NCBI RefSeq assembly: GCF_011046895.1
Contig: NZ_CP049250.1
Coordinates: 1,834,501-1,898,500 of the forward strand
Origin: Rhizobium rhizoryzae
Lineage (GTDB): Bacteria > Pseudomonadota > Alphaproteobacteria > Rhizobiales > Rhizobiaceae
DNA length: 64,000 nt
Direction of reading: 5' to 3'
Program-made: the position numbers and the translations under genes
Notes under the pieces: generated by a model
Told to the model about the DNA's origin: nothing
Seen by the model: the letters and a program-made list of their open reading frames with translations, nothing else
Databases searched by the model: none
Shown here: positions 40,158 through 45,069 of the stretch, piece by piece
How positions within the stretch are numbered: the first letter of the stretch is position 1
Layout of the letters: each line of letters begins with the position of its first letter

Positions 40158-40442
40158 CTATCGTTGCTGGCCAACATGCCGCGCAAGCTCTTCGAAGCTT
40201 GGATGGACACCCTTTTCGGCTGCCTCGTTTGCCACGGACAAGAGACGGATCGGAAAGGCAACTGCCTTCGAATGGGAAGGTGAAACGTTATGCGCGTTAG
40301 GATCATTGATCACCGCACGTTCCACCTCGGCCAGTGTTTCCCGGATCTCTTCGTGCGTCAGCAATTGCTTCTCGACCAGAAGCCGGTTGATGGCGGCCAA
40401 GGCCATATAGAGACCTTCCAGTTGCGGGTTTGCCGTATTCAT
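40158..40442 (-). CDS. Small conserved hypothetical protein
   Basis: 94 residues. All-helical by composition (LEGLYMALAAINRLLVEKQLLTHEEI, EEIRETLAEVERAVI), soluble and acidic; no known domain. Its ATG overlaps the NDH-2 stop by 4 bp, so it is translationally coupled to that gene and probably functions or is regulated with it. I do not recognise the family. Confidence 0.78.
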   Translation of the reverse strand: MNTANPQLEGLYMALAAINRLLVEKQLLTHEEIRETLAEVERAVINDPNAHNVSPSHSKAVAFPIRLLSVANEAAEKGVHPSFEELARHVGQQR

Positions 40443-41791
40443 GTCTCGCTCCTGTGTGTCGTGGCAGGCAATCCGGTTGCTGCGTTTTCGTCAATGAGAC
40501 GGGCGCCCCTCTGCCTCGTCACGTAGCGCCATAGCCATTGGACCGTGACCAGCAGGCGTTTTTCGAAATTGACGAGCAGAAAAACATGGACAATTGCCCA
40601 GAGCAGCCAGGCAAGCCGCCCTTTCAGGCGACGATTGCCGAAATCGAAAATGGCGGCGTGGCGTCCTATGACCGCAGTGTTTCCGCGATTGTGAAAATGA
40701 AACGGCTCTGAAGGCCTGCCGTCGAGCAATTGTTCGCGCAAAGCCTTGCCCAGATATTCGCCCTGCTGCTTCGCCACCTGAGCGAGGGCGGGAAGCGGCT
40801 TGCCCTCATCATCGATGCGAAGCGCGGTATCGCCTAGTGCGTAGATGCCTTTCGTTCCTTCGACCTGCAGATCGGGACCAACTGGAATGCGTCCGCCCAT
40901 CTTCGCCTCCAGCCCCAGCCACTTGTGAGCTGGCGATGCCTTGACGCCCGCACCCCACAGGATATTGCCCGCCGGAATGGTGCCGCCGGAGGTCTGAACG
41001 CTGCCTCGCGTGATGTTTTCAACACGTACACCGGTGCGAATGTCGACGCCGAGCTTCGCAAGCTCATGCCATGCATAATCCGTCAGCTCGTCGGGAAAGG
41101 CCGCTAGGATCTTCGGTCCGGCCTCGATCAGGATCACGCGGAAATCCTCCGGGGCAAGTTTTCGAAAGTCCCGGGTGATCATATAGCGGCCCAGTTCCGC
41201 GATGGCGCCTGCCAGCTCGACGCCTGTCGGGCCGCCACCAATGATGACGCTGGTGAGGAGCGCTTTCTTCTCCGTGGCATCTTGCGAGAGTTCGGCTCGC
41301 TCGAAGGAGAGCAGAAGCCTTTGCCGGATCAGCCGCGCCTCGTGGATTGTCTTCAATCCGGGCGCGACGGCGCGCCATTCGTCATGGCCGAAATAATTGT
41401 ATTCGGAACCGGTCGCGATGATCAGGTGATCGTAGGCAACCGGAGCGCCGTCCTCCAGAAGGACGTGCCGGGCCGTCTGGTCCACGCCGGTGACCTCCGC
41501 AAGCATCACCCTGATATTCTTGTATCGACCCAGCGTGCGCCGGATTGGTTCGGCAATATCGGCGGGAGAAAGGGCGGCAGTCGCAACCTGATAGAGCAGC
41601 GGCTGGAAAAGGTTGTGATTGCGTCGATCAATGACCGTCACCTCAAGCACGGTATTGCCAAGCTCTCGTGCGACCGCCAATCCGCCAAACCCTGCCCCAA
41701 TGATGACGATCCGGGTCGGACGCCCGACAACCGTCGGAGGGGTTTCCTGCGGCCCTCTCTGGAGAACCGAGGTATCCGGGTGAAAGCTCAT
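40439..41791 (-). CDS. ndh: Type II NADH dehydrogenase (NDH-2)
   Basis: 450 residues from the ATG at 41791 (GAGGAT upstream); the in-frame extension to 42178 runs over other genes. FAD fold RIVIIGAGFGGLAVARELGN at about 27-46. NAD fold SVIIGGGPTGVELAGAIAELG near 165-185. FAD-binding ALGDTALRIDDEGKPLPALAQVAKQQGEY and a C-terminal membrane-anchoring amphipathic region (LAWLLWAIVHVFLLVNFEKRLLV). NDH-2 feeds electrons to quinone without pumping protons. An EcfG-like promoter sits upstream, divergent from that of the micro-proteins. The C-terminal 20 residues are unusually polar. Confidence 0.94.
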   Translation of the reverse strand: MSFHPDTSVLQRGPQETPPTVVGRPTRIVIIGAGFGGLAVARELGNTVLEVTVIDRRNHNLFQPLLYQVATAALSPADIAEPIRRTLGRYKNIRVMLAEVTGVDQTARHVLLEDGAPVAYDHLIIATGSEYNYFGHDEWRAVAPGLKTIHEARLIRQRLLLSFERAELSQDATEKKALLTSVIIGGGPTGVELAGAIAELGRYMITRDFRKLAPEDFRVILIEAGPKILAAFPDELTDYAWHELAKLGVDIRTGVRVENITRGSVQTSGGTIPAGNILWGAGVKASPAHKWLGLEAKMGGRIPVGPDLQVEGTKGIYALGDTALRIDDEGKPLPALAQVAKQQGEYLGKALREQLLDGRPSEPFHFHNRGNTAVIGRHAAIFDFGNRRLKGRLAWLLWAIVHVFLLVNFEKRLLVTVQWLWRYVTRQRGARLIDENAATGLPATTHRSET

Positions 41792-41900: not shown

Positions 41901-41925
41901 GGAACCTTTTGCTGCCCTTGCCGTT
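41901..41925 (+). promoter_or_regulatory. EcfG/RpoE2-type promoter for the micro-protein pair
   Basis: GGAAC (41901-41905), 16 bp, CGTT (41922-41925): exact consensus. The first 24-codon gene starts at 41958. It lies 12 bp from the oppositely oriented candidate for NDH-2. Confidence 0.7.
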
Positions 41926-41957
41926 GATGATGCGAAACGCAAGGGAGCTTGGGAAAA

Positions 41958-42032
41958 ATGAACAGCATCGTCTGGCTCGTGGGAGCCGTCGTTATCGTAA
42001 TTGCGGTCCTGAACCTGATCGGTCTTTCCTGA
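41958..42032 (+). CDS. 24-residue single-helix membrane micro-protein, copy 1
   Basis: Starts at the ATG 41958, with AAGGGAG 10-16 nt upstream, and ends at TGA 42030-42032. It is MNSIVWLVGAVV, then IVIAVLNLIGLS: one hydrophobic helix after a short polar start. 17 or more of 24 residues match copy 2, 57 bp downstream. The first 13 codons differ only at third positions, so the peptide is under selection. No function is known to me. It is likely co-transcribed with copy 2 from the EcfG-type promoter. Confidence 0.78.
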   Translation: MNSIVWLVGAVVIVIAVLNLIGLS

Positions 42033-42088
42033 TCACACGCGCCATCCGGGCGCCCATTCTCGTCATTCTTCAAACCCTGGAGGGAAAC

Positions 42089-42163
42089 ATGAACAGCATC
42101 GTTTGGCTCGTCGGAGCCGTTGTCATCGTTCTGGCCGTTCTGTCGTTCGTCGGCATCGCCTGA
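42089..42163 (+). CDS. 24-residue single-helix membrane micro-protein, copy 2
   Basis: ATG at 42089 with GGAGGG 5-6 nt upstream; TGA at 42161-42163. Begins with the same 14 residues as copy 1 (MNSIVWLVGAVVIV) and then LAVLSFVGIA. The DNA of the two copies differs at several synonymous sites, so this is an old duplication under protein-level selection. A strong terminator follows 20 bp later, which closes a two-gene transcription unit of about 280 nt. Confidence 0.8.
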   Translation: MNSIVWLVGAVVIVLAVLSFVGIA

Positions 42164-42183
42164 ATTGAACGCAAGCAAATTTC

Positions 42184-42217
42184 AAAAAGCGCTGGTTGGA
42201 AACAACCGGCGCTTTTT
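42184..42217 (+). terminator. Terminator after the micro-protein genes
   Basis: AAAAAGCGC(T/C)GGTTG-GAAA-CAACC-GGCGCTTTTT: about 14 bp of stem with one mismatch, GAAA loop and T5. Confidence 0.9.
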
Positions 42218-42288: not shown

Positions 42289-44967
42289 TCAAGCCTTGCC
42301 GAGAAGCACCGCGTAGGGGCGCTCGGAGAAAACATCGTCCAGCATCAGGCGCTCGCCCGGTTCGAAACCTCTGCCCGAAAACACATCTTCCAGACCACCG
42401 TCGAAGCGCAAATCGCGCAGGGACACGCCGGTTCCGTACCAGAATTCGGCGGAAGGCAGAGCGTTCATTCCCTGTATGCCTGCCAGCACAAAGCGCGGGG
42501 CAATGACGAGGAGTGTCTGTTTGCCGAGCTTTCGAGCGAAGGCCACGGCGTGATCCCGCTTTTCTCCGGCAATGGTCAGCGGTGTATAGTCGCCGTGCCA
42601 GAAGAGATCCGGATTCTGCTGGCGCAGTTTCAGCAGTGTTGCAATGAGATGCTGCTTCAGATGGCCTGTCAGCCAGGTTTCAGTGTCTGCAGCGTCCGGC
42701 GTATGATCGAGCATGTCCTGCAATCGATCATAGTCGGGCATGCGACGATTGTCAGGATCGACAAGGCTGAGATCCATGGTTTCGCTGCCCTGATAGATGT
42801 CAGGGACCCCCGGAGCCGTGAGCTTGATCAAGGTTTGCGTGACGGAGTTGACGGCCCCTGCCAGCATGACGGGACGCATGCGGTTGAGGAAATCTTCACG
42901 GAAGGCCAGCGTTTCCGGAGCAAGCAGACGGGAGGCATAGGCCAGCACTGCCTTCTCATAGCCTGCATTCTGGTTGTTCCAGCTGGTCTTGAGCTTCGCT
43001 TCCCGCAATGATTTTTCGACGTAAGGCAGGAAACGCTCCTCGAGTGCTTTCAACCCCTCGGCGTGTCCTGGATCAAGATCATGCGGCCAGACACCGACGA
43101 GGGCCTGTAGCAACAGCCATTCAACTTCCGGCTCCGGAGCGGCTCCGTCGTTCAGTTGAACGAGGCCGACAGAATTCTTCTCGCGCCAGTCGTTGATGGC
43201 AGCGGCGAACCCGTCCGGTTGTTCCGTCAGAGCGTAAAGGCGTGCGCGGGCATCTTCGCCCCGCTTCGTATCGTGTGTCGTGCTGGCGGAAAGTCCTTCC
43301 GGCTGCTGGGCCTGGCGCAGTTTCATGTCTGCATGAAAGTTCTGCAGGCTGAAGCTGCGGGGCAGAGGTTCTGCGCCGACTTCGTTGAGGGCAAGCACCG
43401 GGTTGAGGCGGAAGAACAAAGTGTCCTCGATGGACTTTGCCATCAGCGGACCCGTGAGTTGCTGGAAGCGTGTCCTGAAGACGGCAGCTCTTGCTTCCGA
43501 TGTCTGGTCGACATCTCCGATCAGAATTCGGGCAATCATCGACAGAGCCTCAGCATCCGGTGGTTCTTTGCCGTCCCGAACCTTGGTCAGAACCTCGCTC
43601 AGTCGCTGACGGTCCGCGGGCTCCAGACCAATCGCATGGCCATAGGTTCTGTAGATCGGGAAAGCGATCAGCAGCTCGCGAAGTGCATGTGAAAATGCCG
43701 CGTCATCCAGTGCAGCGCTGCCCTGTCCCTGATGCGTCTGTGCAATCTCCAGCCCCGTGGTGACCAGAGTCCGGAACTCGCCTTCGAAGTTGACATCCGC
43801 CATTAGCCCCTTGGCCTTGCGGATTTCCTGCTCCACGTCGATCGGCTGACCGGCAAGCTCCGCGTAGCTCCGCCGCATGGTCTCCAACCCGGAGGGCTCA
43901 ATCAGGACATCAGACACGGAGGAGATGAATTCATAGCCGGTGGTGCCGGAAATAGGCCATTTCGCCGGAAGGCTTTCTCCGTGAGCCAGGATTTTCTCCA
44001 CCAGCAGCGTGCATTTGGGACCAACTTCATCCCGCAGGCGCGCGAGATAGCGACCGGGATCCGCCAGACCGTCCACATGGTCGATGCGCAGGCCGTCTAC
44101 CTGTCCGTTTTTCACCAGTTCCAGCGTCAGGCGGTGGCTTTCAAGGAAAACCTCCTCGTCTTCGACACGCAGTCCCGCGAGCCCTGTAATTTCGAAGAAC
44201 CGGCGATAGCTGAGGTCGCGCGGCGCATCACGCCAGGACATCAGGCGATAGGGCTGCGCCTCATGCAGGCTGGCAAGGAACGTCTTGTCGGATGCCAATT
44301 GCGCGAGGGACGCGTTCAGACGTTCTGCTTGCTCGGCACTCAAAAGGCTGCGCACCGACTGGTGGAATGCGTCTTCCTCTTCGGGCTTTGCATCCCGTGC
44401 AAGCGCGATCAGGGCATCCGCCTGAGGGTGGTCGATACTGCCGAGCGCCAAGGCATAGGTAGAGGGGGCAATCGGATAGTGGCTCTCGAAATAGCCAAGT
44501 GCGAGGCAGCCCTGTTCTGCGTCGTAGAGCAGGGTGATATCACCGGCGTCGAGCACCTGTTGAAAGTCGTCGCCCAGAAAGGGAAGGGTCAGCCTGCGCA
44601 TCCAGTTGACGTCGAAGAAGTGGCTGAAGCGGCTGTCCTTGCCCCATTCCACGATGCTGCGCCACCAAGGGTTTTCGAGAGCGGATGCCATATGGTTCGG
44701 GACGATGTCGATGATGAGGCCAAGGCCCGCCTCCTTCAAGGCAGCACTCAGCCGGTCAAAGCCTTCGCGCCCGCCGATTTCGGGCTCGATCTCGTTGCAA
44801 TCGGCGACGTCATAGCCGTGAGTAGAGCCCTTGGCGGCGGTGAATACAGGAGAGGCATACAGATGGCTGATGCCAAGGTCGCGCAGGTAAGGAACAAGCT
44901 CGACAGCCTTGTCGAAGGTCATGCCATTGCGGAACTGGATCCGGTAGGTGGATGTAGGGATCGTCAA
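42289..44967 (-). CDS. treY: TreY, malto-oligosyltrehalose synthase
   Basis: 892 residues from a TTG at 44967 (GGAGG about 10 nt upstream). It rearranges the reducing-end alpha-1,4 bond of malto-oligosaccharides to alpha-1,1, first step of TreY/TreZ trehalose synthesis. The GH13 core is clear: STYRIQFRNGMTFDKAVELV, LIIDIVPNHMA, LRIDHVDGLADPGRY (nucleophile Asp), LVEKILAHGE (acid Glu) and TTHDTKRGEDARAR. The C-terminus (LTAPGVPDIYQGSETMDLSLVDPDNRR) is complete. No treZ or treX is in the window. An EcfG promoter upstream fits the role of trehalose as a stress protectant. Confidence 0.95.
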   Translation of the reverse strand: MTIPTSTYRIQFRNGMTFDKAVELVPYLRDLGISHLYASPVFTAAKGSTHGYDVADCNEIEPEIGGREGFDRLSAALKEAGLGLIIDIVPNHMASALENPWWRSIVEWGKDSRFSHFFDVNWMRRLTLPFLGDDFQQVLDAGDITLLYDAEQGCLALGYFESHYPIAPSTYALALGSIDHPQADALIALARDAKPEEEDAFHQSVRSLLSAEQAERLNASLAQLASDKTFLASLHEAQPYRLMSWRDAPRDLSYRRFFEITGLAGLRVEDEEVFLESHRLTLELVKNGQVDGLRIDHVDGLADPGRYLARLRDEVGPKCTLLVEKILAHGESLPAKWPISGTTGYEFISSVSDVLIEPSGLETMRRSYAELAGQPIDVEQEIRKAKGLMADVNFEGEFRTLVTTGLEIAQTHQGQGSAALDDAAFSHALRELLIAFPIYRTYGHAIGLEPADRQRLSEVLTKVRDGKEPPDAEALSMIARILIGDVDQTSEARAAVFRTRFQQLTGPLMAKSIEDTLFFRLNPVLALNEVGAEPLPRSFSLQNFHADMKLRQAQQPEGLSASTTHDTKRGEDARARLYALTEQPDGFAAAINDWREKNSVGLVQLNDGAAPEPEVEWLLLQALVGVWPHDLDPGHAEGLKALEERFLPYVEKSLREAKLKTSWNNQNAGYEKAVLAYASRLLAPETLAFREDFLNRMRPVMLAGAVNSVTQTLIKLTAPGVPDIYQGSETMDLSLVDPDNRRMPDYDRLQDMLDHTPDAADTETWLTGHLKQHLIATLLKLRQQNPDLFWHGDYTPLTIAGEKRDHAVAFARKLGKQTLLVIAPRFVLAGIQGMNALPSAEFWYGTGVSLRDLRFDGGLEDVFSGRGFEPGERLMLDDVFSERPYAVLLGKA

Positions 44968-45015: not shown

Positions 45016-45040
45016 AAACGTCAGTCAGGGCAAGCAGTTC
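45016..45040 (-). promoter_or_regulatory. EcfG/RpoE2-type promoter for treY
   Basis: On the minus strand GGAAC (45040-45036), 16 bp, CGTT (45019-45016): exact consensus, 49 bp before the TTG start. It lies just downstream of the metallophosphoesterase stop. Confidence 0.7.
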
Positions 45041-45069
45041 CCGCGCTGCAACCGAATTACTGGCCGCGC

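Follow-up and report, generated by a model that had tools for sequence, protein, structure and literature searches.

What, if anything, is encoded by two adjacent open reading frames of only 25 codons each, and what might their products do? The question was raised by a first-pass annotation of the window (the whole stretch of DNA analysed here, 64,000 nucleotides), in which two such ORFs with starts 131 bp apart were read as a duplicated pair of small membrane proteins lying between a promoter and a terminator. The ORFs were confirmed at 41958-42032 and 42089-42163, and the features of the locus are as follows.

40439-41791, minus strand: NDH-2, 450 aa, a divergent neighbour and not a conserved partner
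41901-41925, plus strand: EcfG-type promoter GGAAC-N16-CGTT, GGAACCTTTTGCTGCCCTTGCCGTT, an exact match to the pattern, 32 nt 5' of ORF A
41941-41947, plus strand: Shine-Dalgarno-like AAGGGAG, recognised from the sequence, 10 nt 5' of ORF A
41958 (ATG) to 42032 (TGA), plus strand: ORF A, 25 codons, 24-aa micro-protein MNSIVWLVGAVVIVIAVLNLIGLS, N19-L20 subtype
42033-42088, plus strand: intercistronic A-B spacer, 56 nt, without an EcfG promoter of its own
42079-42084, plus strand: Shine-Dalgarno-like GGAGGG, recognised from the sequence, 4 nt 5' of ORF B
42089 (ATG) to 42163 (TGA), plus strand: ORF B, 25 codons, 24-aa micro-protein MNSIVWLVGAVVIVLAVLSFVGIA, S19-F20 subtype
42184-42217, no strand assigned: intrinsic-terminator-like hairpin AAAAAGCGCTGGTTG-GAAA-CAACCGGCGCTTTTT, bidirectional and common to the convergent treY
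42289-44967, minus strand: TreY-like maltooligosyl trehalose synthase with an alpha-amylase domain, a convergent neighbour, presumably TreY

The first 14 residues of the two products are identical, not the same 'bar one position' as had been stated, and divergence sets in from residue 15 onward. Codons 1-14 show 5 synonymous and 0 non-synonymous differences, which bears out the earlier claims that the copies differ in DNA at synonymous sites and that the duplication is kept at the protein level; over the whole length there are 11.25 synonymous differences over 19.5 sites and 7.75 non-synonymous differences over 49.5 sites. Each ORF has a candidate ribosome-binding site as proposed (AAGGGAG before A, GGAGGG before B), and the description of the peptides as single hydrophobic helices is supported for both 24-residue products. 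Neither product has a charged side chain, which disfavours an amphipathic pore. ORF A and ORF B are the only clear copies of the family in the window's genome.

The micro-protein family was found in all 58 genomes of the genus that were searched and the tandem A-B pair in 44 of these, with starts 104-140 nt apart; relatives carrying the pair include strains of Neorhizobium, Rhizobium and Pseudorhizobium. An A-type copy, assigned by profile score and position, is kept in 58/58. Over 30 tandem loci pN/pS was 0.083 for ORF A and 0.112 for ORF B, and the variable columns at first, second and third codon positions numbered 10, 0 and 22 in A and 7, 1 and 20 in B. Residue 19 is N or K in A copies and S in B copies; A and B have thus diverged, and both have been retained. 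It had been reasoned that absence of the peptide from relatives, or an excess of non-synonymous change, would tell against the pair; instead the peptide is present throughout the genus and beyond it, and non-synonymous change is depleted. As judged from these codon comparisons ORF A and ORF B are each under protein-level purifying selection, and conservation in 58/58 genus genomes and far outside the genus confirms that the coding pair at 41958-42163 is real and well beyond chance.

These data also bear on the idea that the transcript is a regulatory RNA in which the ORFs are incidental. This idea draws on a weak Rfam match that takes in ORF B and the terminator (42068-42215, plus strand, against RF02503 Atu_C9; 21.4 bits against a gathering score of 40, E 0.0013) and on the predicted structure of the region, with a z of -2.5 that includes the terminator. 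The Rfam alignment is however best in the terminator hairpin, variation falls mainly on third codon positions and the protein sequence has been conserved from class to class, and we regard such an RNA as extremely improbable.

The reach of the family was assessed with a profile (A1) built from members that include ORF A and ORF B, which score 46.9 and 51.6 bits as two of its own sources. Members were found in the order (clear matches in 102/397 genomes), in 24/337 genomes of the class and, outside the class, in 8 of 200 genomes sampled from the phylum. Besides the genus, carriers thus include further Rhizobiales and Alphaproteobacteria as well as some members of the Gamma- and Betaproteobacteria. 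Named carriers are Mesorhizobium, Microvirga, Devosia, Rhodobacteraceae, Acetobacteraceae, Halospina and Marinobacter, together with metagenome bins, a few of which are possibly mislabelled. The product is exactly 24 aa long in 321 of the 331 copies detected. Among 180 distinct 24-mers, with a majority sequence of MNSII(Y/W)LVG(L/A)VVIVLAILSFLGLR, residues M1, G9 and G22 are invariant, V12 is present in 179 and L18 in 178; ORF A and ORF B share the length of exactly 24 residues and G9, V12, L18 and G22. No significant helical periodicity of conservation was detected (p=0.59), so a single conserved helix face is not proven. Tandem micro-gene pairs occur in other genera also (L036/L140, L215 and L218), where they appear to have arisen independently. 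Relatives of 22 residues that lack the SFxGLR tail were seen at L231, L107, L114 and L115.

The models of Pfam and NCBIfam all stay below cut-off on the micro-protein family, and a PDB profile search with it gave no match. A tblastn search of a plasmid database with the 24-aa query also gave no match, a result of little weight because in a database of that size the cut-off is hardly reachable for so short a query. The expectation that such genes are easily missed by annotation was borne out in public plasmid records, where most of the micro-gene copies that allow a judgement are unannotated; on a conjugative plasmid of R. etli 8C-3 (NZ_CP017242.1, L286:1463-1639, minus strand) a 'hypothetical protein' has been annotated antisense across the micro-gene. 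Literature searches by sequence fragment and by topic found no paper describing the family. This is apparently a so far undescribed family of stress-linked small membrane micro-proteins, with a paralogous pair in the genus.

The link to stress comes from the promoter. The EcfG promoter that had been placed upstream of the pair was recovered as an exact pattern at 41901-41925 and is the sole one found for the A-B pair. In the genus it lies 29-33 nt before ORF A in 30/30 tandem loci, a second EcfG promoter was found in the A-B spacer (32-65 nt) in 0/30, and a Shine-Dalgarno-like site precedes ORF B in all 30. A family-wide scan of 226 non-redundant upstream regions for GGAAC-N15-18-(C/T)GTT gave a match in 103, in most cases at 25-55 nt from the start codon; the rate was 1.3% in 9615 control windows taken from these loci, and on the opposite strand 16/226 regions matched. 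Roughly half of the upstream regions in the family, among them those of the Gamma- and Betaproteobacterial copies, lack the match. The pair itself combines a GGAAC-N16/17-CGTT promoter with a conserved distance, as is characteristic of the EcfG regulon, and regulation of the pair by EcfG is probable on this sequence evidence. The window's genome (G000) also carries a PhyR gene adjoining an ECF sigma factor gene (C4:1620589-1621362).

Downstream, the strong terminator that had been reported after the pair was found as a near-perfect hairpin at 42184-42217 flanked by an A run and a T run. The strict terminator pattern was present in 11/30 tandem loci of the genus, and such a strong hairpin is therefore not universal. 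A further EcfG-type pattern is seen at 45017-45041 on the minus strand, just upstream of the treY-like gene, and both of the convergent units around the terminator may therefore be stress-induced. Within flanks of 1.5-5 kb TreY adjoins the locus in 45/45 A-type loci and NDH-2 in 34/45, while neither was found near any of the other 232 family loci. The suggestion that NDH-2 might be the membrane partner of the micro-proteins was consequently rejected, as its adjacency is not conserved across the family. A Pfam scan of 62 neighbouring genes that lie outside the partner operon described below revealed no common neighbour, only scattered matches, the commonest being MscS-type channels (4) and DUF1206 (3).

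Clustering of the flanking genes did reveal one recurrent arrangement, in which the micro-gene lies directly 5' of a gene for a multi-helix membrane protein of approximately 190-360 aa with the motifs YVDW, GGYLAGRMR, RDGxHG and GGxHRD. This gene is directly downstream on the same strand in 47/133 micro-loci of the order, in 45/397 genomes (loci L206, L220, L228, L244, L255 and around 40 others), with 3-81 nt between the model ends. No Pfam or NCBIfam family covers the protein, a PDB profile search with it gave just two weak and implausible matches (best E 0.043), and an AlphaFold2 model built from 3 sequences had a mean pLDDT of 51, a quality that does not permit a fold search. A profile of the partner (A2) detects the family in 126/397 genomes of the order; it was built from genes adjoining micro-genes, so the ranking of its matches is biased, and diverged homologues elsewhere may escape it. 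Counted over genomes from the matches listed and ignoring phylogeny, 57 have both families, 45 the micro-protein only, 41 the partner only and 254 neither, a strong association with an odds ratio of 7.8. Genes for DUF3618, YqjE/holin-like and DUF883/ElaB-like proteins, the last so labelled on resemblance alone, follow the micro-gene in some loci. Neither these genes nor that of the partner were found to adjoin the pair in the window's genus. The window's genome holds a distant homologue of the partner family with an internal TGA (G000:C4:721277-722086, minus strand).

The multi-helix protein is the likeliest direct partner of the peptide in the operon-bearing families of the order. It may be proposed more generally that the peptide is a dedicated small subunit of this protein and that the Neorhizobium-type pair is a decoupled remnant serving a distant paralogue. 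The 47 closely spaced pairs and the co-occurrence of the two families speak for this proposal, but the bias of the profile weakens the comparison, 45/102 micro-bearing genomes of the order have no partner among the matches listed, and the only match in the window's genome is the distant one interrupted by TGA. Close homologues of the partner are moreover absent from approximately half of 21 genus genomes, and the conserved adjacency expected of a subunit was not found in the window's lineage. A dedicated subunit throughout the family thus seems unlikely. With the partner non-adjacent and often absent, and the adjacency of NDH-2 not conserved, neither protein can serve as the general target in the genus.

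A short hydrophobic peptide in tandem copies also recalls the repeated Ibs/TisB-type toxins, and the pair could be conceived of as a type I toxin repressed by antisense RNA. No opposite-strand sigma-70-like promoter was found at the pair, in a scan that covers E. coli-type promoters only, and inheritance at one locus genus-wide, strong purifying selection, the stress promoter and the operon partner seen in other lineages would all be atypical of such a toxin, which makes this explanation very unlikely.

The reading that we prefer, with a probability of roughly 0.6, is that a bicistronic EcfG-dependent stress mRNA yields two membrane peptides which, through helix packing, adjust the membrane or a membrane complex under stress. 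EcfG, the sigma factor of the general stress response that is set free through PhyR, would transcribe the pair as one short message that starts just past 41925 and ends at the hairpin (42217). Translation would begin separately at the ribosome-binding site of each cistron, and each 24-residue product would insert into the inner membrane as a single helix. Packing would involve the small-residue positions G9/V12/A16/S19 and G22, either between like peptides and between the two paralogues (A with B) or between a peptide and a target protein in the membrane, and would adjust the membrane or membrane complex during stress. In a model helix G9, V12, A16 and S19 fall on one side, a placement that suits close helix contact. 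In other families of the order the first gene of an operon with the multi-helix membrane protein encodes the peptide. The basis of this reading is what can be read from the DNA, namely coding constraint, fixed length, an EcfG-type promoter and gene linkage, and it is firm as far as coding and probable regulation; from these we infer expression under stress, single-pass insertion into the inner membrane, helix packing and a physiological effect. A bolder and rather doubtful extension is that a two-part stress membrane complex of the 24-residue peptide and the multi-helix protein is widespread and a common output of the general stress response in Alphaproteobacteria, and that duplication of the peptide in the Neorhizobium-type genus produced two co-expressed variants, which form a hetero-oligomer and function without the larger subunit.

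To our knowledge much of the EcfG regulon has no assigned biochemical role. The family described here, which is very short, under strong constraint and for the most part unannotated, recurs behind EcfG promoters, and its genes often adjoin those of another, equally unnamed membrane family; the case shows the extent of overlooked protein-coding content below about 30 codons.

Several known systems invite comparison. Atu_C9, a Rhizobiales sRNA of Agrobacterium, resembles the pair in being a short transcript with a similar terminator hairpin, but differs in that the score of the pair against its model stays below gathering and the alignment is best in the terminator. The Atu_C9 consensus itself seems to hold a short hydrophobic ORF behind a ribosome-binding site, and some Rhizobiales sRNAs may therefore be micro-protein mRNAs. 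CydX, KdpF, MgtS and AcrZ are single-helix peptides made beside, or acting on, a larger membrane protein. In the present family a predicted single-helix peptide is likewise often encoded next to a larger membrane protein, but here the larger protein is uncharacterised and often absent and there is no Pfam or NCBIfam match above cut-off.

A YohP-like function entails lowered membrane potential and altered lipids upon production of the peptide. YohP of E. coli is a stress-induced protein of 27 aa with one transmembrane helix and no catalytic residues, which forms dimers by way of its glycines and reduces the membrane potential (PMC12719787). Like the present family with its predicted helix, YohP (PF25659) is linked to stress, has fewer than 30 aa, a single transmembrane helix with glycines and no catalytic residues; it differs in its 27-residue sequence MKIILWAVLIIFLIGLLVVTGVFKMIF, in not being under EcfG and in being a single gene. 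Homology is not supported, since no adequate sequence match to the PF25659 model was obtained (one match among 27 family members, E 0.14), and the family profile gives YohP 7.3 bits, a value equalled or exceeded by 21/2000 shuffles. By analogy the micro-proteins are most likely non-homologous functional analogues of YohP. A narrower version, in which they have no protein target at all and simply accumulate, dimerise and lower membrane potential or fluidity to save energy, is favoured by the YohP precedent (PMC12719787), by the shared size class, by the stress promoter and by a single helix that carries glycines and no charge, but it lacks support from homology and the near-invariant sequence exceeds the needs of a bare hydrophobic helix, so that it is at best a tentative alternative to the packing helices that we favour. 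Closer to hand is SEP6 of Sinorhizobium meliloti, a translated protein of fewer than 30 aa with a predicted transmembrane helix that is found in the membrane/ribosome pellet fraction and is conserved in Hyphomicrobiales (PMC10117765). Compared by its description only, SEP6 resembles the family in size, predicted helix and Hyphomicrobiales conservation, and it could be a member of the 24-aa family.
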